From an uncultured Pelagibacteraceae bacterium (GTDB taxonomy: Bacteria; Pseudomonadota; Alphaproteobacteria; Pelagibacterales; Pelagibacteraceae), in assembly GCA_902564385.1 (NCBI GenBank), contig CACFAT010000006.1, positions 1 to 64,000 on the forward strand: a stretch of DNA of 64,000 nt, written 5' to 3'. The notes under the pieces are model-generated. The model saw only the letters and a list, made by a program, of their open reading frames with translations, was not told the origin of the DNA and did not search any database. Numbering within the stretch: position 1 is the first letter of the stretch; each line of letters begins with the position of its first letter. Of this stretch, positions 7,982 through 22,005 are shown in pieces. The position numbers and the translations under genes were made by a program.

Positions 7982-8027
7982 TTATTTTCTTTGAGAAACT
8001 AACTCTTATTTAATATAAAAAAAATAT

Positions 8028-9080
8028 ATGAAAAAGAAAATTGCTTTAATATTTGGTGTTACTGGACAAGATGGATCATATCTATCCGAGTTTCTTTTGA
8101 AAAAAAACTACATTGTGCATGGAGTAAAAAGAAAGTCTTCATCCTTTAATACCGAAAGGATCAATCATATTTATGAAAATAAAAAATCTCAAAATTTTTT
8201 TTTACATTACGGAGATATATCAGATACAAATTCAATATTTAAAATTATAAATAAATTAAAACCAAATGAAATTTATAATTTAGCAGCCCAATCTCATGTT
8301 GCAGTATCATTTCAAATTCCAGAGTATACTTCTAATGTTGATGCAATAGGCACTTTAAGAATATTAGATGCAATTAGGTTTTTTAATTTAGAAAAAAAAA
8401 CAAAATTTTACCAAGCCGGCACTTCAGAAATGTTTGGTGAAGTTCAAGAAATACCACAAAATGAAAATACCCCATTTTATCCTAAAAGTCCTTATGCCGT
8501 TTCCAAAGTTTATGCACATTGGATAACTAAAAATTATAGAGAATCCTATAATATTTTTGCATGCAATGGAATTTTGTTCAATCATGAAAGTCCGAGGAGA
8601 GGTGAAACATTTGTTACAAGAAAAATTACATTAGGATTATGCAAGATAAAATGTGGTTTACAAAAAAAACTTATATTAGGAAATTTGGACTCTAAAAGAG
8701 ATTGGGGACATGCAAGAGATTTTGTAGAAGCACAATGGTTAATAATGCAGCAAAAACGACCTAAAGATTATGTAATAGCTACAGGCAAACAATATAGTGT
8801 TAAAGAATTTATAAATCTAGTTTTAAAAAAATTGGAGATTAAACATTTTTGGAGAGGCAAAGGTATTGATCAAAAATGTTTTACTAAAAATGGTAAAATA
8901 ATAATTGAATGTAGTAAAAAATATTTTCGTCCATCAGAAGTAAACACTTTGATCGGTGATGCTACTAAAGCAAAAAAAGAATTAAAATGGAAACCAAGAG
9001 TAAATATTAAACAATTGATTGATGAAATGGTAGACGAGGACTTTAAAATAATTTCTCAATATGATAAAAAAAAAAGATAA
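8028..9080 (+). CDS. gmd: GDP-mannose 4,6-dehydratase
   Basis: Converts GDP-D-mannose to GDP-4-keto-6-deoxymannose, the first step to GDP-fucose, GDP-rhamnose or GDP-perosamine. The 350-residue SDR has the NADP-binding motif [10 protein letters not shown] at 10-19 and the [11 protein letters not shown] segment typical of GMD. The TSEMFGEVQ catalytic Ser/Glu segment is near 131 and YxxxK (YAVSK) near 156. [15 protein letters not shown] and [13 protein letters not shown] follow, both family signatures. The 3' end overlaps fcl by 20 bases, so the two enzymes are coupled and probably make GDP-L-fucose or a relative for the island glycan. Confidence 0.95.
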
Positions 9081-10008
9081 AATATTTCTAGCTGGTCACA
9101 ATGGATTAGTTGGCTCAGCTATATATAGAATGTTAAAAAAAAGAGGTTTTAAAAATATTATTACTCAAAGTAAAAAAAAGTTAGACCTTTTAAATCAAAA
9201 TAAAGTAATAAATTTTCTAAAAAAAAATAAGCCTAAAATTGTGATTATAGCCGCGGCGAAAGTAGGAGGGATAAAAGCAAATAACATATTTAGAGCAGAT
9301 TTTATTAGAGAAAATTTAACAATCCAAAATAATCTAATACACGGAAGTTACTCTAATAAAATCAAAAACTTAATATTTTTGGGCTCTAGCTGTGTTTATC
9401 CAGTAAATTGTAAGAGACCTATTAAAGAAGATTATCTATTAACAGGGAAACTTGAAAAAACTAACGAGCCTTATGCAATAGCCAAAATCGCAGGAATTAA
9501 AATGTGTGAGAGTTATAACAACCAGTACAAAACTAATTATTTATGTTTAATGCCTACAAATACTTTTGGTCCAAATGATAACTATGATTTAGAAAATTCA
9601 CATTTTATACCAGCAATATTGCGCAAAATTTATTTAGCTGAAAAAAATAAAAAATTTAAAATTAAATTGTGGGGTACCGGAAAAGCTAAAAGAGAAGTCA
9701 TATATGTAGATGATTTAGCAGATGCAGTCTTATATTTTATGAATAAAAAAGTTAAACATACTTTAATAAATATAGGAACTTCGAAAGAGAAAACAATCAA
9801 ACAATTTGTTAAAATTATTTTGAAAATTGTAGATAAAAAAATGAAAATAGTTTTTGATAACAATCCCAATTTAGATGGTATGAAAAGCAAAGTATTAGAT
9901 ACAAAACTTGCTAAACAATATGGATGGTCGCCAAAATCAAAATTAGAAGATGCTATTTTAAAAACTTATTTAGATTTAGAAAAAAATTATAAACAAATAG
10001 TAAATTAA
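9061..10008 (+). CDS. fcl: GDP-L-fucose synthase (GDP-4-keto-6-deoxymannose epimerase-reductase)
   Basis: An SDR of 315 residues. It has the nucleotide-binding start [13 protein letters not shown], the diagnostic [20 protein letters not shown] with the catalytic Ser/Cys pair, and [21 protein letters not shown] carrying Tyr-xxx-Lys. [12 protein letters not shown] and the downstream IPAILRKI region are also typical. It follows gmd with a 20-base overlap, the normal gmd-fcl pairing that yields GDP-L-fucose from GDP-mannose. A GDP-colitose or similar synthase is a less likely alternative. Confidence 0.93.
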
Positions 10009-10011
10009 ATT

Positions 10012-11193
10012 ATGGGATTTTTTCTCAAAAATGAAAATTTAATCACAAGATTTTCATTCTTTTTAATATTTATACTAGGAATATATCTATGCTTTATAGG
10101 AGGTTATGGTTCAGACGAAGATACACTACCTATGATTTATTCTTTCGAAACCAAATTATATGATGGCAGATTTGTTTCATCGAGATTTACAGGCAATCCA
10201 GTAGCAGAAATTGGAATAGGTTTTTTGTCAGTTTTTTTTGGAAGTTTTGTTACAAATCTTTTTACATATTTATTTCTAGTATTAGGATTGGTTTTATTTT
10301 ATTTATCATTCAACAATTTAAAAATATCTAAAGAAGTTTATTTATTTTTATTTCTTTGTTTGACCAATCCAATATTATTTTTTGATAATTTAGAACCTGT
10401 TGACTATTCCTGGGCTTTATTTTTTTTTTCCCTTGGAACATTTTTTTTTAATAAAAAAATATTTGAATTAGCTATATTATTTTTTGCAATATCTATAGGT
10501 GTTAGAATAAATTATGTTCTTTTTGTAGCAATAATAATTTTTTTTTTTGAGTTTGAAGAACAAATTTCAATTAATCGTCGATTAAATATTTTTCTTAGCA
10601 CTTTTGTTTTTGGAGGCATGTTTTATGTTCCAATTTGGTTCGAAAATAAATTTGACTTATCTTGGCTAACAGCCGCAAGACCTATGGATCAAGGATTTTA
10701 TGGTTTGATTGCTAGATTTATTTATAAAACTTACATTTCACTTGGTTACCTATCATCTTTCTTAATTTTATTCTTTATAATTAAAAATTTAAAAAATATT
10801 TTAATTATAAATAACTTTAAAGTATTATTACTTCTAGCAATTTCAAACCTATTAATTTTCCTATGGATTCCAGGTGAATTTTCTTATTTGCAATTATTTT
10901 TAGTAATTATTTTATTTATTATTTTTAATTCGAAGAATAAAAAAATTATATATGGATTATGTCTGTTAAATTTCATTTCATGGTTTATTTTTATCAATCC
11001 ATTGACCATTAAATATAAACAACCGGAATTATGTGCACCTAAAAATGCTATAAGTGCTAAAATTAATATCAAAGTTGAAAATGGCTATTTAATGAAATAT
11101 TTAGATAGTAGAGAGCATATTAGATGTTGGGTTCAGGGCAATACTGCTAGGGATAAAAGAATTCTTAAAGGACAGCCATTAAAACGCGACTAA
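10012..11193 (+). CDS. Polytopic membrane protein, possible GT-C glycosyltransferase
   Basis: A 393-residue protein with about nine hydrophobic segments. An acidic GSDEDT motif sits in the first external loop near residues 28-33, the place where GT-C enzymes carry their catalytic acidic residue. SSRFTGNPVAEIG follows. The C-terminal tail of about 55 residues is soluble and contains two cysteines (ELCAPKN and HIRCWVQGN), suggesting a periplasmic domain with a possible disulphide. No specific family was recognised. It lies 3 bases after fcl and overlaps the next gene by one base, so it belongs to the same operon. Confidence 0.55.
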   Translation: MGFFLKNENLITRFSFFLIFILGIYLCFIGGYGSDEDTLPMIYSFETKLYDGRFVSSRFTGNPVAEIGIGFLSVFFGSFVTNLFTYLFLVLGLVLFYLSFNNLKISKEVYLFLFLCLTNPILFFDNLEPVDYSWALFFFSLGTFFFNKKIFELAILFFAISIGVRINYVLFVAIIIFFFEFEEQISINRRLNIFLSTFVFGGMFYVPIWFENKFDLSWLTAARPMDQGFYGLIARFIYKTYISLGYLSSFLILFFIIKNLKNILIINNFKVLLLLAISNLLIFLWIPGEFSYLQLFLVIILFIIFNSKNKKIIYGLCLLNFISWFIFINPLTIKYKQPELCAPKNAISAKINIKVENGYLMKYLDSREHIRCWVQGNTARDKRILKGQPLKRD

Positions 11194-12857
11194 TGCTTAT
11201 AACATTCTTAATTAATCTCATTATATCGGCAATTATAATTGGATATTCTTTTATATTCAAATTAATCATCAGTGAAAATAAAAATATTAAAATTTATAAT
11301 TTAGATTTTATATATGGAATATTTTTTATAACTTTAATTTTAATTTTAATAAATTACTTTATTGCTACTTCTATAGCCAAAATACCTTTGGCAATCTTTG
11401 GTTTATTTCTATTCCTTTATGCATTTTTTAAAAAGAAAATTGCAATCGATTATATCTACTTTTTCTTCTTTCTTTTAATTTTTTCTGTATTTACTTATTA
11501 TAATTCAAATAATGTTGACTCACCCGTTTATCATCTTCAAACAATTAATTGGATACATGACCATAATATAACTTTTGGACTAGCTATTTTAGATTGGCAT
11601 TATGCGTTAAATTCCATCTGGCATATACTTTTAGCAGGCTTGAGCTTTCAATATAAAGATTTTAATTCAATATACGTAATAGCTTATATTCCTTTTTCAT
11701 TTATTTTTACCGAAAGTGTTAAAATTAAAACTAGTAAGGAATTGAGTCATTTAACGCTATTTTTATGCACATCGTTTCTGTTATTCTTTAGCATTGTCCA
11801 TCCCTATAAAAATGGAATAATCTTTAACCATTTAGGAAATCCTGAAGTAGATACTGTAGGAATGATTTTTTTTATAGCATCGAGTTTCATATTTATAAGA
11901 TATATTGAAACAAAAAATAAAGATTACTTTTATTTGCTAATTATATCTTCTGTAATTTGCCCTATGTTAAAACTTACATATATTGGGGCTCTCATATACC
12001 CTTTAATCGCTTTTTATTATCATAAAAACTTAAATACAATGTTATTTTTTAATAAAGTTTCTATTTTCAGCTTTTTTTTATTTGCTTTTTGGGCTTTAAG
12101 AAATTTAATATTAAGTTCTTGCTTTTTATTTCCTATCAAGTCTACGTGTATTAATTCTTCTTGGTCTTTAAGTGATAATCAAGTTTTGTTTTATCTTAAT
12201 CAGACTAAAAGTTTTGCTAGAGATACTACTTTAAGGTCAAGATATACTGATTTTGATTACACAATTTATAGCTATGATTGGGTTTTGCCATGGCTAAAGG
12301 ATTATTTTGTTAACGATGCTTTTTTAAATATAACAATATCTATATTTGTCTTATCTTTATTTTTTATAATTTTAATAAAATTATTATCTAAAAATCAAAT
12401 TACAAAAAAAACAAAATTCTTTTTAACAACTTCTATAATTCTTTATATAATTAATTTCTCTATATGGTTTCAAGCACCCGAGATAAGATTTGGTTGGGGA
12501 ATACTGATCTTTTTTCCATGTGTTCTCTTAGCTCTAATGTTGATAAATATGAATTTTTTTAAAATATATTTATCTAATTATATAGCCAGTAGCTTGATTA
12601 TACTTTCTATAATACTAGTAAACAAAAATTTAAATAACTTTAAGTTCTTAGATTTACTGAGACCTTTTGGAAAAAATTTTGATTATTCTCAAATTGTTAA
12701 ACTAATGGATGTAAATAGCTTTAAATTTTATCAGAGCTTGAATTGGCAATGTGCAGATTTCAGAGGAATTTGTATAAATAAACCAAAAAAACATTATTTT
12801 ATTGAAAAGCGTAAAAATTATTTATTTATAAGCACTAAAGATAAAAATACAAATTGA
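11193..12857 (+). CDS. Polytopic membrane protein, GT-C-like (paralogue of 15868-17532)
   Basis: A 554-residue protein with about 11-12 hydrophobic segments. A DSPVYHL motif at residues 109-115 lies in the first large loop, matching the D-x-x-x-Y-H-L signature of PMT-like GT-C membrane transferases. SCFLFPIKSTC lies in a central loop with paired cysteines, and a soluble tail holds two more cysteines (WQCADFRGIC). The minus-strand protein at 15868 has the same length and the same motif order. The substrate is unknown, with polyprenyl-linked sugar as donor being the usual case for GT-C. It overlaps the following GT2 gene (TTG start inside its TGA stop). Confidence 0.6.
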   Translation: MLITFLINLIISAIIIGYSFIFKLIISENKNIKIYNLDFIYGIFFITLILILINYFIATSIAKIPLAIFGLFLFLYAFFKKKIAIDYIYFFFFLLIFSVFTYYNSNNVDSPVYHLQTINWIHDHNITFGLAILDWHYALNSIWHILLAGLSFQYKDFNSIYVIAYIPFSFIFTESVKIKTSKELSHLTLFLCTSFLLFFSIVHPYKNGIIFNHLGNPEVDTVGMIFFIASSFIFIRYIETKNKDYFYLLIISSVICPMLKLTYIGALIYPLIAFYYHKNLNTMLFFNKVSIFSFFLFAFWALRNLILSSCFLFPIKSTCINSSWSLSDNQVLFYLNQTKSFARDTTLRSRYTDFDYTIYSYDWVLPWLKDYFVNDAFLNITISIFVLSLFFIILIKLLSKNQITKKTKFFLTTSIILYIINFSIWFQAPEIRFGWGILIFFPCVLLALMLINMNFFKIYLSNYIASSLIILSIILVNKNLNNFKFLDLLRPFGKNFDYSQIVKLMDVNSFKFYQSLNWQCADFRGICINKPKKHYFIEKRKNYLFISTKDKNTN

Positions 12858-13615
12858 AAATAAGCATTATTACACCAACATATAACAGCGAAGATACTAT
12901 ATTAACAAATATAGAATCTGTCTTAAGTCAAGATTATATAAATTGGGAGCAGATAATTATTGATAATATTTCAACTGATAAAACTTTGGAGTTTGTAAAA
13001 AATAAAAAAAATAAAAAAATTAAAATCATATCAGAAAAAGATCTCGGAATTTTTGATGCAATTAATAAAGGAATTGAAAATTCTACAGGTGATATAATTT
13101 CTATACTCCATTCTGATGATTATTATGATAATGATAATGTGTTAAGTATGATAGCTAGTAATTTTAAAAAATTTAATCCCGATGTTATTTATGGCAATTT
13201 AATTTACGTAAAAAAAAATGATATAAATTCTACTTTAAGGTTTTGGAAATCACAAAACTTCAAAAAAGGATTATTTTATAAAGGTTGGAGCCCACCTCAT
13301 CCAACATTCATTATAAAAAAAAAAATTTACGAAAAGTATGGAAAATATAATAAAGAATTAGGAAATTCATCAGATTTTGAATTAATGTTTAGAATGTTAG
13401 AAATTCGCAAATGTACATTTTTATATTTAGATAAAACGTTTATAAAAATGCGTTATGGGGGTTCTTCAAATAAAAGTTTTTCAAATATTATTAAACAAAA
13501 TTTAACTATTTTGAAAATTTTAGGAATCTATAATAAACCAATAAAGCTCTCTTATTTCATTATTTACAAAATTTGTAACAGAATAATGCAATTTATTATT
13601 AGACCAACGAAATGA
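12854..13615 (+). CDS. GT2-family glycosyltransferase (WcaE/PGL-like)
   Basis: A 253-residue inverting GT2 transferase. It has ISIITPTYNSEDTI at the start, IIIDNISTDKT near residue 35, DLGIFDAINKGIENS, and HSDDYYDNDNV as the metal-binding Asp cluster. The HPTFIIKKKIYEKYG motif is typical of WcaE-type enzymes. The start is TTG overlapping the TGA of the previous gene, and the stop overlaps the ATG of the ligase-like gene by four bases, so three genes are coupled. Sugar specificity cannot be read. Confidence 0.85.
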   Translation: MKISIITPTYNSEDTILTNIESVLSQDYINWEQIIIDNISTDKTLEFVKNKKNKKIKIISEKDLGIFDAINKGIENSTGDIISILHSDDYYDNDNVLSMIASNFKKFNPDVIYGNLIYVKKNDINSTLRFWKSQNFKKGLFYKGWSPPHPTFIIKKKIYEKYGKYNKELGNSSDFELMFRMLEIRKCTFLYLDKTFIKMRYGGSSNKSFSNIIKQNLTILKILGIYNKPIKLSYFIIYKICNRIMQFIIRPTK

Positions 13616-15159
13616 TTAAGTTTTTATCAAAAAAAAATTTTATACCAGAAATTTTAATTGTGCTTTTTCCAATTGCATTAATATCTGGTCCACTTGTACC
13701 TGAAATATTTGTGTTGATTATAAATATTTTTTTTTTAATCACTATTATTATTAATAAAGATTATAAATTTTTAAATGATAAATTAATTTACATAATTTCA
13801 ATTTTTGTCTTGTATGTTACTTCACTATCATTTTTTTCAGATTATAGTGATCAAATATTTTTAAAAAATGTTTTTTATTTTAGATTTATTTTATTTATTT
13901 TAGCAATTTATTATTTTTTAAATAAAAACTCTAAATTTATATATCTAATATTTTATTCGTTAATAATTATGTTTGTATTTTTAATTGTTGATGGTTTTTA
14001 CCAATTTGCTTATGATAAAAATCTATTTGGTTATCCAAAGTTTAGAAGCGATAGAATTTCCAGCTTTTTTGAAGATAAGCTTGTCTTAGGTAGTTTTATT
14101 TCTAGATATTTTTTTATTATTATCGCTTTATATTTTTATTTAAGAAACAAATTTAACGATATAATAATTTTACCAGTTATTTTATTGTCTTTTATATTAA
14201 TTGTTTTAACAGGAGAAAGGTCTGCATTATTCTTAACAATCATTGGATTAATAGTAATATTTATTTTACTAGATATAAAATTCTTAAGTAAAATTATAAT
14301 TATTTTATTAGCAGCAATTATATTATCTGTATCATTTAAAATAAACTCAACATTGTATGATAGGTATATCAATCAAACAAAGTCTCAAATATCATTTAGC
14401 AAAAACTTAGATTTAAGTAGTTTTTTTGACAGATTTAAATATTACAAATTAAGCTGGAATACAGCTTTTAATGGATTTAAAGAAAATAAAATCTTTGGAC
14501 AAGGTCCTAAATCATTTAAATATTTTTGTTCTCAGCCAAAGTTTGTAACTTATAGTTCGAAAGAATCATTTAAAAATAACAACATACAATATTTGGAAAT
14601 TCATAAAAAATTTATAAATGTCAAAATTACAGAAATATTTTTTGAACTTGGAGATGTAATTGAAAATAATAATTTATTATTAAAATATCAGTTTAAAAAT
14701 AAAGATTATGAATTTTATTCTAACAAAAAAGGAAAAATAAATTTTATCAATGTTTCTAAAGGCAATTTTATTAATAGTGGACATAAATTATTTAGTCTAA
14801 ACTTAACTGATTTTGATATCCCTGAAAAAAGTTACTTTTTTAGAAATGGATGTACCACTCACCCACACCAATTATATTTACAATTAATGTCCGAAACTGG
14901 TTTGATTGGCACTATATATATATTTAGTATTTTTCTTTTCATAATATATCTTTTTACAAAACATCTAATTGCAAAAATATTTTTTAAAAGTGTATTATAT
15001 AACAATACAAAACTATGTATTCTAACCTATTTTTTTTTGCTACTTTTTCCAATGACAACCTTTGGAAATTTCTTTAATAACTGGTTTATTATGTCCTTTA
15101 GTTTACAGTTAGGTTTACTTTTATACTTTTTTATAGACAAGAAAAATGAAAATAAATAA
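13612..15159 (+). CDS. O-antigen ligase/polymerase-like protein with inserted lipoyl/biotinyl-like domain
   Basis: A 515-residue membrane protein with about ten hydrophobic segments and a long periplasmic loop near residues 255-430. It has family-like elements of WaaL/Wzy_C proteins: GERSAL near 200, IFGQGPKSFKYFC ending at Cys306, and GCTTHPHQLYLQLMSETGLIG from Cys414. Between these cysteines, where relatives have only a short linker, sit about 105 residues. Residues 335-398 of that insert read like a barrel-sandwich hybrid (lipoyl/biotinyl/HlyD) repeat: FELGDVIENNNLLL, then YSNKKGKINFINVSKG, then INSGHKLFSL. It overlaps the upstream GT2 gene. Ligation of glycan to lipid A or polymerisation is the expected role. 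Confidence 0.75.
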   Translation: MIKFLSKKNFIPEILIVLFPIALISGPLVPEIFVLIINIFFLITIIINKDYKFLNDKLIYIISIFVLYVTSLSFFSDYSDQIFLKNVFYFRFILFILAIYYFLNKNSKFIYLIFYSLIIMFVFLIVDGFYQFAYDKNLFGYPKFRSDRISSFFEDKLVLGSFISRYFFIIIALYFYLRNKFNDIIILPVILLSFILIVLTGERSALFLTIIGLIVIFILLDIKFLSKIIIILLAAIILSVSFKINSTLYDRYINQTKSQISFSKNLDLSSFFDRFKYYKLSWNTAFNGFKENKIFGQGPKSFKYFCSQPKFVTYSSKESFKNNNIQYLEIHKKFINVKITEIFFELGDVIENNNLLLKYQFKNKDYEFYSNKKGKINFINVSKGNFINSGHKLFSLNLTDFDIPEKSYFFRNGCTTHPHQLYLQLMSETGLIGTIYIFSIFLFIIYLFTKHLIAKIFFKSVLYNNTKLCILTYFFLLLFPMTTFGNFFNNWFIMSFSLQLGLLLYFFIDKKNENK

Positions 15160-15172
15160 ATATAATTAATTT

Positions 15173-15865
15173 ATGAAACTATCAATAGTTATCCCATGTT
15201 ATAATGAAGAAGAAACATTGGAAAAGATCTTTAATAAAGTTATGAAATTTAATGAATTTGAAAAAGAAGTAATAATTATTGATGATTGTTCAAATGATAA
15301 AACTCCGGAGATTATTAACAAATTAAAAAATAATTATAAAGAGCTAAAATCTGAGAGGCATTCAGAAAATATGGGCAAAGGTTCTGCATTGAGGACTGGT
15401 TTTAAAATTGCACAAGGAGATATAATACTAATACAAGATGCCGATTTAGAATACGACCCAAATGACTATCATAATTTACTCAAACCATTTACAGAAAGTG
15501 ATGCTCAAGTTGTTTATGGATCTAGATTTTTAGGAGGTAAATATGTCAGGCTTCATTATTTTTGGCATTTTGTTGCAAATAAATTATTAACTATGGCTAC
15601 TAATATTTTTACAAATCTAAATATGACTGATATGGAAACTGGCTATAAGGTTTTTAAAAAAGAATGTCTAAGAGATATAATTCTCCATGAAAAATCTTTT
15701 GGAATTGAACCTGAAATAACAATGAAACTTGCAAAAAAAAAATTTATTTTTTATGAAGTCCCCATTAGCTATAAAGGCAGATCATATTCAGATGGAAAAA
15801 AAATAACGATAAAAGATGCGTTTAGAGCGATATATTGTATTATAAGATACAGATTTTTTGATTAA
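15173..15865 (+). CDS. GT2-family polyprenyl-phosphate glycosyltransferase (DPM1-like)
   Basis: The 230-residue protein resembles dolichol/polyprenyl-phosphate mannose or glucose synthases. It has LSIVIPCYNEEETL at the start, VIIIDDCSNDKTPEI, ENMGKGSALRTGF, then QDADLEYDP as the DXD-like metal site and YGSRFLGG. DMETGYKVFKK and FGIEPEITMKLAKK follow. Such enzymes load a sugar onto a lipid carrier on the cytoplasmic face for use by GT-C enzymes outside, which fits the GT-C-like neighbours. It has no C-terminal membrane helices. It ends 2 bases from the convergent membrane gene. Confidence 0.85.
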   Translation: MKLSIVIPCYNEEETLEKIFNKVMKFNEFEKEVIIIDDCSNDKTPEIINKLKNNYKELKSERHSENMGKGSALRTGFKIAQGDIILIQDADLEYDPNDYHNLLKPFTESDAQVVYGSRFLGGKYVRLHYFWHFVANKLLTMATNIFTNLNMTDMETGYKVFKKECLRDIILHEKSFGIEPEITMKLAKKKFIFYEVPISYKGRSYSDGKKITIKDAFRAIYCIIRYRFFD

Positions 15866-15867
15866 AT

Positions 15868-17532
15868 TTATCTTCCATCCCAATAAACACTATAACCAAG
15901 AATTTTTTTAAATTTTAGTTTTTCAGTCTTATAGTAAGTACAAGGAGATTTGCTGTACATACATTGCTTACCTCTGCTAAAATAATAGAATCCGTTATTT
16001 TTTAAGTATACCTTTGAAAATTTTTCATTTGGCTCAATATTTGGCCAGATTTGATTCACTGTTTTGTCATACGAGATTCTATTTAAATTTTTTAATGTTA
16101 ATCCACTTAATGAAATAATAATGAAAAGAATAAAAAAATTTTTAATTTTATCAATTGAAATATATTTTAATTTATCTTTGATTAATATCAAAAATACCAA
16201 AAGTATAAAAGTTATTAAAAATGAAAATCCAAACCTATAAAGAGGAAATTTAAAAAACCATAAAATAACAGTAAGACTTGTAAATAAGACAAGAAACAAA
16301 TTGTTAATTTTTATGTTTCTATTTAATTTTAAAATATTTTTCTTTCCTGCCTTTGCTCGTGTTATTACAAAAATATAAGTTACTATTAAAAACAATAGTA
16401 TTGGTAATAATTTTTCGAAAATATATGATAAATGATTATTTCTCCATGTTGGAAACCAATTAAAATTCTGATTAAACTTTTCGAAGGAACTAATAGAGTC
16501 TTTTTTATCCGGCCAACCTTTTGCCCAAGCCTCACTAACTTGTGCAGTTTCGATAGTTTTCTTTTCATTAAAGATTTTGAGCGAGTCCAAACAAGTATTT
16601 TTTATTGGGAAAAATACACAACCACTAATTAGTATAGACTTTATTAAAAACAGTATGAATAGAGATGAAAATAAATAAAACTTTAAACTTTTAAAAATTA
16701 CAATTTTACTATTAATTTTTAAAAATAAATAAAGAAGAGGAATTAAAGATATAATCATAAATATTTTCAAGGTTGATAGAAATATTGCAATTAAAAATAG
16801 AAAAAAAAATTTATTAGTTGACAAATTCTGTTTTAAAAAAACTTCATATAATTTTAAAAAAAAATAAAAATAAAATATATGTGCCGCTGCGTCATTACCA
16901 TATGCACTATATCTATTGAAAGCATAAATACTGATAACAAAAAAAATAAAATACAAAAGACTTAATGTAGTATTTTTTTCTTTGAAAAAAAAAACAATTT
17001 TTTTATACAAGAAAAAAATATATATAGAAAAAATAGTAACAAGTGGAATAGTTATAAATGATATATTAATAAAAAACGTATTATGAAGTGCAGACAAATA
17101 TTGAATTAAAGATCCATGACCAAATCTGAAATGAATATTAGTCAAACCAATAATTATTTTGCTTTCATTTATAATACTAGTGATAGGAAGGTGGTATAAA
17201 CCTGCATCAGGGCGATTTATATTTGAATATATTATTAAAATGAAACCAATTAAACTCGTAATTATTAAGTAATCTTTATTTAAATAAATTCTATATTTGA
17301 TCCCCAATATTATTCCAATTATAAATAGTATACTGGATAAAATTTGATTTAAGGGAAGTACAAAATTTAATAAAAGTCCCATGAAGGACATAACAATGAT
17401 ACCGATGAGACCTTTCTCAGAAATATCTAAATTAGATTGATAATTATTTGAAAACGCCAATGATATAAAAAATTTCCCATAAGATGTAATTACAAAAGTA
17501 CTTATTAAACAAGCGATAAAAACTTCTAACAT
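15868..17532 (-). CDS. Polytopic membrane protein, GT-C-like (paralogue of 11193-12857)
   Basis: A 554-residue protein with about 12 hydrophobic segments. Signature elements are RPDAGLYHLP at residues 117-126, SGCVFFPIKNTCL in a central loop, and FPLYRFGFSFL late in the membrane domain. A soluble tail has paired cysteines (KQCMYSKSPC). The length, motif order and cysteine pattern match the plus-strand protein at 11193, so the two are paralogues although clearly diverged. PMT-like GT-C glycosyltransferase activity is the best guess. It is a single gene on this strand, followed downstream only by a convergent GT2 gene. Confidence 0.6.
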   Translation of the reverse strand: MLEVFIACLISTFVITSYGKFFISLAFSNNYQSNLDISEKGLIGIIVMSFMGLLLNFVLPLNQILSSILFIIGIILGIKYRIYLNKDYLIITSLIGFILIIYSNINRPDAGLYHLPITSIINESKIIIGLTNIHFRFGHGSLIQYLSALHNTFFINISFITIPLVTIFSIYIFFLYKKIVFFFKEKNTTLSLLYFIFFVISIYAFNRYSAYGNDAAAHIFYFYFFLKLYEVFLKQNLSTNKFFFLFLIAIFLSTLKIFMIISLIPLLYLFLKINSKIVIFKSLKFYLFSSLFILFLIKSILISGCVFFPIKNTCLDSLKIFNEKKTIETAQVSEAWAKGWPDKKDSISSFEKFNQNFNWFPTWRNNHLSYIFEKLLPILLFLIVTYIFVITRAKAGKKNILKLNRNIKINNLFLVLFTSLTVILWFFKFPLYRFGFSFLITFILLVFLILIKDKLKYISIDKIKNFFILFIIISLSGLTLKNLNRISYDKTVNQIWPNIEPNEKFSKVYLKNNGFYYFSRGKQCMYSKSPCTYYKTEKLKFKKILGYSVYWDGR

Positions 17533-17590
17533 TTATTTATAATTAGCTTTTAATATATATAAATTCTTTTTTAAGAAAATTAAAAATAAT

Positions 17591-18598
17591 TTATTCTTTG
17601 ATCTTATCATTAATTAAAATTTTAATGAGTTTTTTAAAGCTTGTTTTAGGCTTCCATTTTAAAAATTTTTTTGCTTTACTAATATTACCTTTGGTAGAGT
17701 AAATATCATTTGGTCTAAAATATTTCTTATTTATTCTTATTATTATTCTATTGTCAGGAATATTGACTAATTTTAAATTTATGCCTTTACCTTTCCATTT
17801 TGCCTTAATATTTAAATAATTAGTTGAAATATCAATCAGCTCTTTAAGAGAATGACTTTTTCCAGTAGCTATAACATAGTCACCTGGTTTTTTAGTTTGA
17901 AGCATTTTCCACATTTGTACAACGTACTCTTTTGAATATCCCCAGTCTCTTTTAATATTTATATTCCCTAGTTCAATTGTCTTGCCTTTATTTTTTTTGA
18001 AATCAATTAATCCTTTGATGATTTTCGAAGATACAAAATTTTCATCTCTCAAAGGCGATTCATGATTAAATAATATTCCTGAAACAGCAAATATATTGTA
18101 AGTTTCCCTGTAATGACGAGTAATATAATGTGCAAATAATTTACTAATTGCATAAGGACTTTGTGGTTCAAATTTTGTTTTTTCTGATTGAAAAATATTT
18201 TTGCTATTTCCAAACATTTCAGATGAGGAAGCTTGGTAAAATTTTATTTTTTTGTCTCTTTTCTTTATTGCTTCTAAAAGATACAAAGCGCCAAGAGCAT
18301 TAACTTTATTGGTATTTATTGGGTTTTCAAATGATTTATCCACATATGATTGTGCAGCTAAATTATATATTTCATCAAAGTTATATCTCTTCAATATTTT
18401 CAAAATTTGAATTGAACTATTTATATTCATTTTTTTTAAAATTATTTTTTTTGATATATTTAATTTTTTTAATCTAAATAAATTTGGCTTATGTCCTGTA
18501 TAAGTACCAATTACTCTATAATTTTTTCCTTTTAAAAATTTTGCAAGATAAGCACCATCTTGACCTGTTATACCCGTAATAAGCGCTATTTTTCTCAT
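17591..18598 (-). CDS. GDP-mannose 4,6-dehydratase homologue (second copy)
   Basis: An SDR of 335 residues starting at MRKIALITGITGQDGAYL. The frame stays open for 32 codons upstream, but that extension overlaps the divergent GT2 gene and does not resemble the family, so the ATG at 18598 is preferred. It has AAQSYVDKSF, SSSEMFGNS with the catalytic Ser/Glu, SPYAISK as YxxxK, NHESPLRDENFV and KRDWGYSKEYV. It lacks the RRSS-type segment of the gmd at 8028 and has GHKPNLFRL there. It may make the same product or act on a related GDP-sugar; the sequence does not decide. Confidence 0.85.
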   Translation of the reverse strand: MRKIALITGITGQDGAYLAKFLKGKNYRVIGTYTGHKPNLFRLKKLNISKKIILKKMNINSSIQILKILKRYNFDEIYNLAAQSYVDKSFENPINTNKVNALGALYLLEAIKKRDKKIKFYQASSSEMFGNSKNIFQSEKTKFEPQSPYAISKLFAHYITRHYRETYNIFAVSGILFNHESPLRDENFVSSKIIKGLIDFKKNKGKTIELGNINIKRDWGYSKEYVVQMWKMLQTKKPGDYVIATGKSHSLKELIDISTNYLNIKAKWKGKGINLKLVNIPDNRIIIRINKKYFRPNDIYSTKGNISKAKKFLKWKPKTSFKKLIKILINDKIKE

Positions 18599-18672
18599 AT
18601 AAATATTTTTATGATTATATAAACTCTTAAGCAATTTAAACATAAAAATACAAAATATTTTAAAAATTAAAT

Positions 18673-19365
18673 ATGATATCGGTAGTAATTCCAACTTTAA
18701 ACGAAGCTAAAAATATTCCTACTATTATTAAAGAGTCAAAAAAATTAAGATATGCTTATGAACTGATCTTTGTTGACGATAACTCAGATGACGGCACAGC
18801 AAAAATAATCAAAAAATTAAAAACAAAAAAAGTTAAATTTATTAAGAGAATAAAAAAGAAAAAAGATTTGTCTAAATCAATTATGTTAGGTGTTAACAAT
18901 TCTAAATATAATAATATATTAGTTATGGATTGCGATTTACAACATAATATTGATTGTGCAAATATGATGATTGAGAAATTTTTTAAAAAAAAAAAAGATA
19001 TTATAGTTGGTAGCCGTTTTTTAAAAAAAAAATACTCAGGTAATTTAAGCTTTGTTAGAACAACTTTTTCCTTATTTTTTATACTATTAATAAACCTTTT
19101 TTTTAAAAAAGAAACAACAGATCCTTTATCAGGTTTTTTTGTGTGTAAAAAAAACTTGTTTTTGTCCTACAAAAAATATTTTTATTTAAATGGTTATAAA
19201 ATTTTATTTGATGTCATTTATAATAGTAGAGAAAATTTAACTATATTAGATCATCAAATTAATTTTAAAAAAAGAAAACATGGAGAATCTAAACTTGATT
19301 TAAAAATTGTAATAATTTTTATTAAACAATGTATTTTTACATTTAAAAACAAAAACAACCGATAA
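18673..19365 (+). CDS. GT2-family polyprenyl-phosphate mannosyltransferase-like protein
   Basis: A 230-residue protein similar to DPM1-type synthases. ISVVIPTLNEAKNI opens it, ELIFVDDNSDDGTAKII follows near residue 33, MDCDLQHN is the metal site, and VGSRFLKKKYSG and TDPLSGFFVCKK are typical. It probably moves a sugar from a nucleotide donor to a polyprenyl phosphate. It diverges from the GMD homologue with a 74-base gap and ends five bases before the convergent oxidoreductase-like gene. It is distinct from the DPM1-like gene at 15173, so two lipid-linked sugars may be made. Confidence 0.82.
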   Translation: MISVVIPTLNEAKNIPTIIKESKKLRYAYELIFVDDNSDDGTAKIIKKLKTKKVKFIKRIKKKKDLSKSIMLGVNNSKYNNILVMDCDLQHNIDCANMMIEKFFKKKKDIIVGSRFLKKKYSGNLSFVRTTFSLFFILLINLFFKKETTDPLSGFFVCKKNLFLSYKKYFYLNGYKILFDVIYNSRENLTILDHQINFKKRKHGESKLDLKIVIIFIKQCIFTFKNKNNR

Positions 19366-19370
19366 ATTTT

Positions 19371-20285
19371 TTATTTATTAAAAGAGTAATAAATTATATC
19401 TTGAGAAATTGGTCCAGCAACATATTTTCTTAAGGCACCACTATTATATACATTAATATTTTTTGAGATTTTTTTTATAAAAATTTTAATAGGTTCATTG
19501 TTAATACTTAGTTTAACTATATGGTTACTGAGAAAATATCTAATATGATTTGACTCATATTTCATAATTTCATTTACTCTAAAATTAATTTTTTTTTTTT
19601 TATATGAAAATTTTTGTACTAAAATACCATTCTCGCAATTTTCATTGTATTTTTCAATCCTTTTAAAAAAAAATTTTTTTAATACATCGCCTAATTTCAT
19701 TGGTATGTAGTAATATTTTCTTTTGTTTAGAAAAATATTTAGTGAATAAGAGCAACTACCATCTTCAAAACTTATTATATCGCTTTTTTTTAATAATTTT
19801 GAATTATATAATAACTTAAGTATACCTAGATTACCGACACAAAGGTCAAGTGTTTTAGTCTTATAAATTTTTTTCCCAAACAACAAAATATTTTGTTTTA
19901 AAACTTTAATTTTAGTAATTTCTTCATGAATTAATTCATTTTTAAAATCACTCTTTTCTATTCTTAAAATATTGTCATTATTTTTATTACTCAAGTAATG
20001 AGTGATATTTATGAAATTATTCATATATTTTCTAACTTTAAAAAAATTATTTTCTTTTTTAAATTTTTTAAATTTAATATTTCTACAAAAATTTTCATAT
20101 CTTTTGCAATTCACATATCCACCCCATATATTTGTATTTCCACCTAATCCATTAAATTCATAAAACCTTTTACTTTTTAAAATTTTTTTTTCGTTACAAT
20201 AAAAAATTTTCGATTTTTTTTTTACTTTATCCCTTACTAGAGCACTCAATCCACTTCCTAAAATTGAATGATTAATTTTGATCAT
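19371..20285 (-). CDS. Poorly characterised FAD-dependent (GMC-like) oxidoreductase
   Basis: A 304-residue protein not firmly recognised. The N-terminus has a dinucleotide-binding-like ILGSGLSAL at 8-16, then GLGGNTNIWGG at 46-56, which resembles the FAD-contact loop of glucose-methanol-choline oxidoreductases. A segment LDLCVGNLGILKLLYNSK resembles the second FAD contact of that family. It is much shorter than ordinary GMC enzymes (about 500 residues), so it may be a compact or partly degenerate form. It is extremely rich in Lys, Asn and Ile. It starts 13 bases from the divergent gene at 20299, also with a Rossmann-like start. Confidence 0.45.
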   Translation of the reverse strand: MIKINHSILGSGLSALVRDKVKKKSKIFYCNEKKILKSKRFYEFNGLGGNTNIWGGYVNCKRYENFCRNIKFKKFKKENNFFKVRKYMNNFINITHYLSNKNNDNILRIEKSDFKNELIHEEITKIKVLKQNILLFGKKIYKTKTLDLCVGNLGILKLLYNSKLLKKSDIISFEDGSCSYSLNIFLNKRKYYYIPMKLGDVLKKFFFKRIEKYNENCENGILVQKFSYKKKKINFRVNEIMKYESNHIRYFLSNHIVKLSINNEPIKIFIKKISKNINVYNSGALRKYVAGPISQDIIYYSFNK

Positions 20286-20298
20286 ATATAAGTGTTTG

Positions 20299-20871
20299 AT
20301 GTTAAAAATATTAATTATTGGATCAAGTTATAGCATCAAAAATACTTTTGCAAAAAAATTTAATAATGAAAAAATCAAATTCATAAATTTTAGAAAAATA
20401 TGGAATTTGAGAAATTTAGATAAATTCGACATTATTATTTTATCGGGCTTTCACCACAAAATTTTTCAACTTCAATTAAAAAATTTAAATAATTATATTT
20501 TTGATTACAAAAATTTTATAAAATACTTAATTTCAAAAACTAATAAATTAATCTTAATATCCACCTTTATACCAAAAAAAAAAAGTTTTAGTAGAGTAGT
20601 TTATTTTTACGTAAATATTTTAAATGATTTTGTTAACAATAATAAAGTAGTTGTATTATCTTTTAAAAAAATTATGGATGATAAACTAAAAAACTCACTA
20701 GTTGGTAAACTGCTTAATATTTTAAAAATAGAAACCACGGCACAAAATGATCTAATTAATAATACGAATGAATTTGTTTATACTAAAATAAAAAAACCAA
20801 AATTTATTTTTTTAAAATACACCAGAACTGTATTTATTGAACGCTTAACAAGATTATTTGATGTAGATTAG
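20299..20871 (+). CDS. Hypothetical protein, degenerate SDR-like
   Basis: The ATG at 20299 is preferred over a TTG 21 bases upstream because it places a nucleotide-binding-like motif (LKILIIGSSYSI) at the N-terminus. The product is about 190 residues, with a hydrophobic strand DIIILSGFHH and LILISTFIP where SDR epimerases have the catalytic Ser strand. No convincing Tyr-xxx-Lys is present, so it is either inactive or not a true SDR. It is the last protein gene before 5S rRNA and diverges from the FAD-like gene. Function unknown. Confidence 0.5.
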   Translation: MLKILIIGSSYSIKNTFAKKFNNEKIKFINFRKIWNLRNLDKFDIIILSGFHHKIFQLQLKNLNNYIFDYKNFIKYLISKTNKLILISTFIPKKKSFSRVVYFYVNILNDFVNNNKVVVLSFKKIMDDKLKNSLVGKLLNILKIETTAQNDLINNTNEFVYTKIKKPKFIFLKYTRTVFIERLTRLFDVD

Positions 20872-20950
20872 TTATTTAAACGCCGAAATACAAAAGTTCA
20901 AATATGTCATTATTAGTTAAGTTTTTTAATAAAAAAATTGTTTTATTTTG

Positions 20951-20978
20951 TTGTAAAATAAAAAAAATAGATTATAAA
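20951..20978 (+). promoter_or_regulatory. Candidate sigma-70 promoter of the solitary 5S rRNA
   Basis: TTGTAA (20951-20956) and TATAAA (20973-20978) are separated by 16 bases, and the 5S rRNA begins about six bases after the second box. The spacing would place transcription start right at the 5S 5' end. Such boxes occur easily by chance in very AT-rich DNA, so position is the main argument. Confidence 0.35.
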
Positions 20979-20983
20979 TTCCC

Positions 20984-21101
20984 CGCCTGGTGATTATTGC
21001 GAAAGGGTAATACCCGATCCCATCCCGAACTCGGAAGTCAAGCCTTTCTGCGCCAATGGTACTTTGTCTTAAGACATGGAAGAGTAGGACATTGCCAGGC
21101 T
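20984..21101 (+). rRNA. rrf: 5S ribosomal RNA
   Basis: About 118 bases with the closing helix GCCTGG (20985-20990) pairing with CCAGGC (21095-21100). The conserved central segments GATCCCATCCCGAACTCGG and GCGCCAATGGTA are present, and AGAGTAGG precedes the 3' strand of the closing helix. It stands alone: no 16S or 23S sequence lies in the preceding 21 kb. The exact ends are uncertain by one or two bases. Confidence 0.96.
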
Positions 21102-21111
21102 ATTCTCTCAT

Positions 21112-22005
21112 ATGAAAAAATACATTGTTGTAACTGGTGGAGCTGGATTTGTTGGTTCTAACCTAATAGAGCATTTTAATAAAAAAACTTCTTTAAACAT
21201 TATTAGCATTGATAACTATTCTAGTGGTAAAAAAAGTAATCATATTACATCCAAAAAAAATAAATACATCAAAGGTGATATTCAAAATATTTCTAAATTA
21301 TTAAAAAGTTATAAAAAAAAAATACATTCGATTTTCCACTTTGGAGAATTTTCAAGAATTTACCAAAGTTTTTTAAAATTTGATAAATGTTTTGATACCA
21401 ACTTCAAAGGAAGTAAAGAGGTATTCAAATTTTGTCTAGATAATAAAATTAAATTAATATATTCTGCAACTTCAGCAAGTCTTGGAAATAAAGGTAATGA
21501 TAAAAATTTATCACCTTATGCGTTTACAAAGTCTAAAAATTTAGAGTTATTAGAAAATTTAAAAAAATGGTTTAATTTTAAATATGAAATAATTTATTTT
21601 TATAATGTATATGGACCAAGACAAATTATGTCTGGCGATATGGCAACTGTTATTGGAATTTTTGAAAATCAGTATAAAAAAAAATTGCCATTAACAGTTG
21701 TTAAACCAGGAACTCAGACTAGGAGATTTACTCATATTTCAGATACCATAGATATATGTTTCGAGGCTTGGAAAAAAAATAAATGCGCTCATTATAGTAT
21801 TACCCATAAAAAGTCCTACTCTGTAATGGATGTGGCAAAAATGTTTAAATATAAAGTGAAATATTTACCACCTAGACTAGGAGAGAGATATGCTTCCGCT
21901 TTAACAAATATGTCTAATAACAACAAAATTATAAGAAAATATGGAAAAATAAATTTGAAAGATTACATAACATCGTTTATTAAAAAGCAAAAAAAATTTT
22001 TATGA
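21112..22005 (+). CDS. NAD-dependent epimerase/dehydratase (SDR, UDP-glucose 4-epimerase-like)
   Basis: A 297-residue extended SDR. It has [17 protein letters not shown] at the N-terminus, [12 protein letters not shown] binding the cofactor ribose, and [12 protein letters not shown] where relatives have the AAxxxVxxS motif. SATSAS is the Ser strand, [14 protein letters not shown] carries Tyr-xxx-Lys, and YNVYGPRQ and [10 protein letters not shown] follow. The fold and cofactor motifs are clear but the substrate sugar is not. It starts only about ten bases after the 5S rRNA with no terminator between, and its stop overlaps the rpmJ start (ATGA). Confidence 0.85.

Follow-up and report, generated by a model that had tools for sequence, protein, structure and literature searches.

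A predicted lipoyl-like domain beside the proposed active site of a WaaL-type ligase in Pelagibacter

O-antigen ligases decide what reaches the cell surface and, in SAR11 bacteria, the glycans found there are considered relevant to escape from phages. To our knowledge, how such ligases choose their donor and acceptor is largely open. The window analysed here (a whole stretch of 64,000 nucleotides from an uncultured Pelagibacteraceae bacterium, contig CACFAT010000006.1) carries a ligase-like protein of 515 residues (13612..15159, forward strand, an open reading frame with an ATG start) that appears to hold an extra domain just ahead of its proposed catalytic histidine. What might a domain of this kind do at this place? 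A sequence-only reading of the same DNA had described the protein as O-antigen ligase-like and its periplasmic loop as the seat of a lipoyl/biotinyl-like domain. That description holds on profile evidence (PDB, Pfam, hhalign and shuffle controls), and the reading frame, its coordinates and all three peptides cited there are as they were given.

We identified the protein as a member of the Wzy_C/WaaL type through Pfam, where it scores 54.1 bits against PF04932 (Wzy_C; cut-off 31.7), and it is the sole Wzy_C protein found in its own genome (84% complete). A PDB search with the window protein alone (phmmer) gave nothing below E 0.37, with the lipoyl protein 7b9k at 2.1; a profile built from 20 ligases matches the WaaL structure 7tpg at 7.5e-13 and the oligosaccharyltransferase 9rmk at 3.6e-10. 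In the profile alignment Arg203 (14218..14220) stands opposite Arg191 of 7tpg, and His419, the last residue of His417-Pro-His419 (14860..14868), opposite His313. The arginine is present in 73 of the 78 ligases that we collected, and both histidines in all 78. In WaaL, Arg191 binds the Und-PP phosphate and His313 is the proposed acceptor-activating residue, a task that falls to His in ligases and, in most of the clan's polymerase families, to Asp or Glu (PMC10920833). The presence of His, not Glu or Asp, at the activator position of the window protein favours a ligase rather than a polymerase. Opposite Arg265 of 7tpg the profile consensus has a Tyr, and Arg251 of the window protein, further upstream, is Arg in 67/78 ligases. 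Hydropathy gives eight hydrophobic runs, some spanning the length of several helices, the criterion for WaaL being 12 transmembrane helices. The window enzyme probably joins sugar chains to the surface lipid of a bacterium that is common in the ocean.

The extra domain lies between two cysteines, Cys306 (14527..14529) on its N-terminal and Cys414 (14851..14853) on its C-terminal border, which may form a disulfide. Each is Cys in 76 of the 78 ligases, the same number having both, and two cysteines of 7tpg align with them in the 20-ligase profile alignment. The loop between these cysteines is periplasmic in WaaL (PMC10920833), and the insert of the window protein would be exposed on the same side. 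It comprises residues 307-413 (14530..14850), so that 107 residues separate the cysteines; the wide spacing noted earlier is thus real, and its estimate of about 105 residues was slightly low. A short linker, said to be usual in the family, was indeed what we found in 68 of the 76 ligases with both cysteines (5-35 residues, median 11), bearing in mind that the 78 are the top matches of our searches and no random sample. The gap measures 107-112 residues in the six ligases with a lipoyl-like insert, and 133 and 148 in two others (L066 and L007). The insert ends three residues ahead of His417 and five ahead of His419. The protein resembles WaaL (CAZy GT121, PDB 7tpg) in its Wzy_C family, its counterparts of Arg191 and His313 and its aligned Cys pair, but 7tpg has 7 residues between these cysteines where the window protein has 107 and a lipoyl-like domain.

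Sequence profiles support the insert as a complete lipoyl/biotinyl-like domain at about residues 325-398 (14584..14805). The alignment spans the whole lipoyl domain, from the first strand (window residue ~325) to the last (398), and the hairpin aligns to lipoyl domains free of gaps in three of the six inserts; the domain end proposed earlier (398) is kept, and its start lies earlier in the chain than the 335 given there. Single inserts mostly give weak Pfam matches. That of the window scores 15.9 bits against Biotin_lipoyl (PF00364; E 0.012), under the 22.1-bit cut-off, and matches the unrelated DUF386 slightly better (E 0.0049). The isolated insert of L064 passes two models, Biotin_lipoyl (31.7 bits, cut-off 22.1) and Biotin_lipoyl_2 (30.1 bits, cut-off 29.8), and the whole L064 chain scores over the Pfam cut-off for both Wzy_C (50.2 bits) and Biotin_lipoyl (27.6 bits). 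When a profile of all six inserts was run against the PDB, nine sequences fell below E 0.01, eight of them lipoyl/biotinyl proteins and the ninth labelled CbbQ. The best was 7b9k, at 2.4e-12 for its repeated domains together and 0.012 for the best single domain, and there were further matches to 1lab (8.1e-5), 1iyu (2.8e-4) and 1z6h (3.7e-4); 7b9k, 1lab and 1iyu are E2 lipoyl domains. These E2 matches, together with Biotin_lipoyl in L064, supply the barrel-sandwich hybrid profile match on which the sequence-only reading had staked its assignment.

Comparison of the insert profile with 12 SAR11 lipoyl domains gave an hhalign probability of 98.2 (E 3.1e-14); these domains had been found with the insert profile itself, so this result is not fully independent, as the PDB and Pfam searches are. 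Against a lipoyl HMM the six inserts score 34.8, 28.3, 27.2, 22.6, 18.9 and 9.9 bits, and the best shuffled insert 12.4 (12,000 shuffles, 10,989 of them scored). Five inserts (18.9-34.8 bits) thus beat all shuffles, and the sixth, that of L005 at 9.9 bits, does not exceed the top ones. In the other direction, the 12 lipoyl domains score 37-44 bits with the insert HMM and no more than 6.6 with any of 100 column-shuffled versions of that HMM. Two AF2 models, each built from a pair of sequences only, were uninformative (full length, pLDDT 37.3; insert, pLDDT 36.0 and pTM 0.33), and it is consequently the profiles from which the fold is predicted. In the window's own genome the only other matches to the insert profile below E 0.2 are frames of 1031 aa (4.7e-9) and 434 aa (9.2e-7), similar in size to the lipoyl proteins of other loci. 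Among the matches listed in the genus-wide insert search, 18 of the 26 loci ranked after the ligases have a lipoyl segment with an ESDK motif; at four loci we take the lipoyl proteins, judging from their sequence, to be the E1 and E2 of pyruvate dehydrogenase.

Earlier, an HlyD-like docking use had been judged likelier for this segment than a cofactor arm. HlyD_D23 reaches 12.2 bits on the window insert and 13.8 on that of L064, both under the 30-bit cut-off, and RND_mfp (NCBIfam) reaches 22.2 bits on L064 (cut-off 94.9; E 5.8e-5 over a stretch of 26 residues). On this same protein the lipoyl, biotinyl and RND-adaptor models of NCBIfam are poorly separated, at 4.7e-5 to 1.5e-4 and all under their cut-offs. 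No coiled-coil hairpin was found between the two halves of the domain, the hairpin being at most six columns longer than in SAR11 lipoyl domains. Given that lipoyl domains are the best matches both in the PDB and in the window's own genome, that the hairpin is short and that the HlyD models stay under cut-off, a lipoyl-like identity seems somewhat better supported than an HlyD-like one, although the separation is not sharp: the HlyD-like label has no model over cut-off, yet RND_mfp scores on L064 much as the E2 and biotinyl models do.

Domains of the lipoyl/biotinyl type are modified at a DK(A/S) or MKM motif. In our alignment such a motif is absent from all six inserts, and it is seen, as DKS, in the SAR11 lipoyl domains aligned to them. 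The hairpin that bears the lipoyl-lysine in true lipoyl domains (14692..14709 in the window) is variable here, its lysine column being occupied by Asn in the window (Asn363) and L001, Lys in L064 and L003, Glu in L004 and Ser in L005. The earlier remark that no lysine lies at the attachment site is hence correct for the window and does not extend to L064 and L003. Four columns are invariant in the six inserts (Gly347, Asp348, Gly374 and Leu396 of the window), the first two forming the GD turn of the lipoyl-like domain (14650..14655). None of these lies at the tip of the hairpin. This speaks against a cofactor and favours a folded module whose surface can change. The missing attachment signal suggests that an old module, which normally swings a cofactor in central metabolism, has been put to new use in holding a substrate or a partner.

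If there is such a partner, the neighbouring genes are where it might be sought. Ahead of the ligase, on the same strand, lie a 393-aa membrane protein, fam6 (10012..11193), a LIC_10190-family membrane protein of 554 aa (left copy, 11193..12857; NF047510 of NCBIfam, 128.5 bits, cut-off 100) and a GT2 glycosyltransferase, GT2a (12854..13615), that overlaps the ligase start. In all six insert loci a member of the GT2a family sits directly next to the ligase on one side. The left LIC_10190 protein is likewise seen in all six; it is shortened at two of them (L093 and L095), and at L095 about 7 kb lie between it and the ligase. Fam6, seen in four of the six, matched nothing in Pfam, NCBIfam or the PDB under the thresholds that we applied; its stretch GGYGSDEDTLPMI is invariant in the four members, and it may be an undescribed membrane glycosyltransferase. 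Behind the ligase, a second GT2 (15173..15865, forward strand) resembles polyprenyl-phosphate sugar synthases, being over the cut-off for Glycos_transf_2 of Pfam with all NCBIfam matches shown under theirs, and is followed by the right LIC_10190 copy (15868..17532, reverse strand, 554 aa; NF047510 112.9 bits, cut-off 100). Both are seen in five of the six loci, the other being L094, in which a different protein follows a Wzy_C-like neighbour before the contig ends. The two LIC_10190 copies flank the ligase and are ~20% identical to each other; neither has a Pfam match, and profiles of the cassette's two membrane protein families found nothing in the PDB at E 1. A second Wzy_C-like protein adjoins the ligase in four insert loci (L093-L096) and was not seen beside the ligases of the window (8000-22000) or L001. 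One of the four was tested and scored 27.2 bits, under the Pfam cut-off of 31.7, and the same pairing occurs with short-loop ligases (L160, L165).

The left LIC_10190 protein exceeds 700 bits in three of the 399 genomes searched, all of them insert-bearing, and is present as two contig-end pieces in a further insert-bearing genome, G342. The next tier, at 288-366 bits, consists of seven genomes (G177, G221, G394, G184, G225, G027 and G185). The ligases of G177 and G027 have a loop of 20 residues, that of G027 lying on another contig than its LIC_10190 protein, and in the other five the ligase falls outside the stretch examined. As far as seen, then, the insert goes with one cassette lineage. 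The region resembles HVR2, a surface-glycan region of SAR11 (PMC2217521).

How these observations could fit together is best set out as a sequence of steps. As a WaaL-type ligase, the enzyme would move a glycan linked to lipid-PP onto a periplasmic acceptor. The short Cys-Cys loop just ahead of His419 would have received a lipoyl domain that is complete but degenerate, bereft of its Asp-Lys-Ser lipoylation motif. There the domain probably forms a folded knob that is kept at the active site. This knob would dock either the glycan itself or a partner from the same cassette, namely a membrane glycosyltransferase or polymerase encoded nearby, and so position the donor or the acceptor. Reuse of the domain as a periplasmic docking or substrate-positioning module is in our opinion the most likely reading, if one about evenly poised between right and wrong; the loss of the lipoyl motif and the site of the insert fit docking rather than a cofactor arm. 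Against it, insert and cassette may simply be inherited together, and such linkage could suffice to explain their association. A broader proposal, that a captured lipoyl domain without its cofactor couples the ligase to the enzymes of a hypervariable SAR11 glycan cassette, with the loop as a general domain-swap site for specificity, is more tentative, and we would sooner expect it to fail than to hold.

Alternatively, the domain may bind nothing in particular and act as a steric lid, narrowing access to the active site to one acceptor (a core type) or one donor. Its position directly ahead of the catalytic-type His419 agrees with this, and so do the ligases L007 and L066, whose inserts are of another kind (148 and 133 residues from cysteine to cysteine) and indicate that the loop tolerates or favours extra mass. 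These two inserts (L007:2374-2805 in G327; L066:1780-2169 in G522) stand in other gene neighbourhoods. They were rejected as lipoyl-like and counted as other inserts, given that neither has a Pfam match at E 1 and that neither ligase gets a positive score from the insert or lipoyl HMM. In the tree described below both are placed outside the clade of the six, on branches without strong support, which implies that this site received an insertion on at least one further occasion; the Cys-Cys loop looks like a repeated insertion site. Mere bulk, however, would not need the lipoyl-fold positions that were kept over a long divergence, and we consider a lid unlikely, though it is the rival to be taken most seriously.

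Less probable again is that the domain is a neutral passenger, carried without a role at a tolerant site. Its rarity would fit. In the genus a homologue of the ligase was found in 262/399 genomes; those listed mostly align from residue 1-16 to ~312 and again from ~410, in frames of ~400-460 aa, and among the matches listed only G000 (the window), G342, G066 and G086 align over the full length with the insert. Strong insert matches occur in at least four of the 399 genomes, the window's own included. At the level of the order 352/397 genomes match; among the matches listed, G596 and G593 are new, the ligase of G593 reading identically to L001. In the class 50/385 match, the window's own genome being the one case in which the match runs through the insert, and several frames over 500 aa from this search (e.g. 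L127, L128) were left out of the loop-length measurement. All genome sets are even draws in which many genomes are incomplete, and the first pass scored at most three candidates per genome for full-length queries. A search of SAR11 genomes for ligases with and without the insert, suggested by the sequence-only reading, thus yielded six of the former and 68 with a short loop, and among the genomes sampled insert-bearing ligases are confined to the genus Pelagibacter. No relative was found on scanning viral contigs, and PHROGs gave nothing at E 0.1. An open frame of ~3104-3108 aa with a ligase match in G452 (L100, G452:C2) was discarded as an artefact of masked N.

The history of the insert is harder to reconcile with a passenger. 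In a tree of 77 ligase bodies (L120 left out; columns filled in fewer than 30% of rows, including the insert, dropped), built by a quick method and rooted at the midpoint, the six insert-bearing ligases form one clade (SH-aLRT 97) with one change and no insertless ligase inside. Since they diverge down to ~35% whole-protein identity with the window, a single gain followed by retention is indicated. One of them, L001 (SAR11 single-cell genome AG-426-E13), is 88% identical to the window over all 515 residues, with 77% in the insert and 91% in the body. Between these two, dN/dS of the insert is 0.27 (NG86) or 0.20 (YN00), that of the body 0.11 or 0.14, and that of a 64-codon core 0.42 (NG86). The insert therefore evolves faster than the body, as a passenger would, but under constraint.

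That the insert has no lipoyl-like fold, and is a K/N-rich loop with a chance resemblance, is very improbable: the uninformative AF2 models and the better score of DUF386 on the window insert would allow it, and the shuffles, the column shuffles and the PDB and Pfam matches of the relatives contradict it. A functional lipoyl or biotin swinging arm in the periplasm is hardly credible, for although the domain is complete by profile and two of the six inserts have the lysine, none has Asp-Lys-Ala/Ser around it, and attachment of lipoyl and biotin is cytosolic.

Returning to the docking module, comparable arrangements exist in other periplasmic systems. HlyD/MexA-type fusion proteins have a non-acylated domain of the barrel-sandwich type in a periplasmic setting. 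The insert would be like these and like the periplasmic domain of Alg44, its fold being profile-based here, but has no long coiled-coil hairpin, leaves the HlyD models under cut-off and is not a separate adaptor. The Alg44 domain, a MexA homologue that has been suggested as a link between the alginate polymerase and components in the periplasm, offers a precedent for docking (PMC3815931). An O-antigen ligase with an extra domain is also found in Brucella WadA, but there it is a cytoplasmic N-terminal GT domain outside the active-site loop (PMC9938171). Our literature search, with most subscription journals outside its coverage, found no lipoyl or biotin_lipoyl domain in an O-antigen ligase, no barrel-sandwich hybrid linked to a periplasmic glycosyltransferase, and no paper on a SAR11 O-antigen ligase bar an unrelated one on phage. 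The enzyme family is known, but its domains appear to be arranged here in a new way, so far observed in a single lineage of Pelagibacter. Since nature offers ligases both with and without an insert next to the catalytic-type His, their choice of donor and acceptor can readily be compared. If the docking reading is true, a carrier domain of central metabolism would have become a periplasmic module free of cofactor in highly abundant marine bacteria. To the lipoyl domain of 2-oxoacid dehydrogenase E2/E1 (PF00364) the insert is similar in that the whole domain aligns, including the GD turn and the Gly that follows the hairpin, and differs in having no DK(A/S) and in occupying a membrane-enzyme loop that faces the periplasm in WaaL. 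Among the SAR11 lipoyl proteins themselves, two E1-like pyruvate dehydrogenase frames of ~1016 aa (L036:1480 onward and L037:1465 onward) have an N-terminal lipoyl domain of their own.
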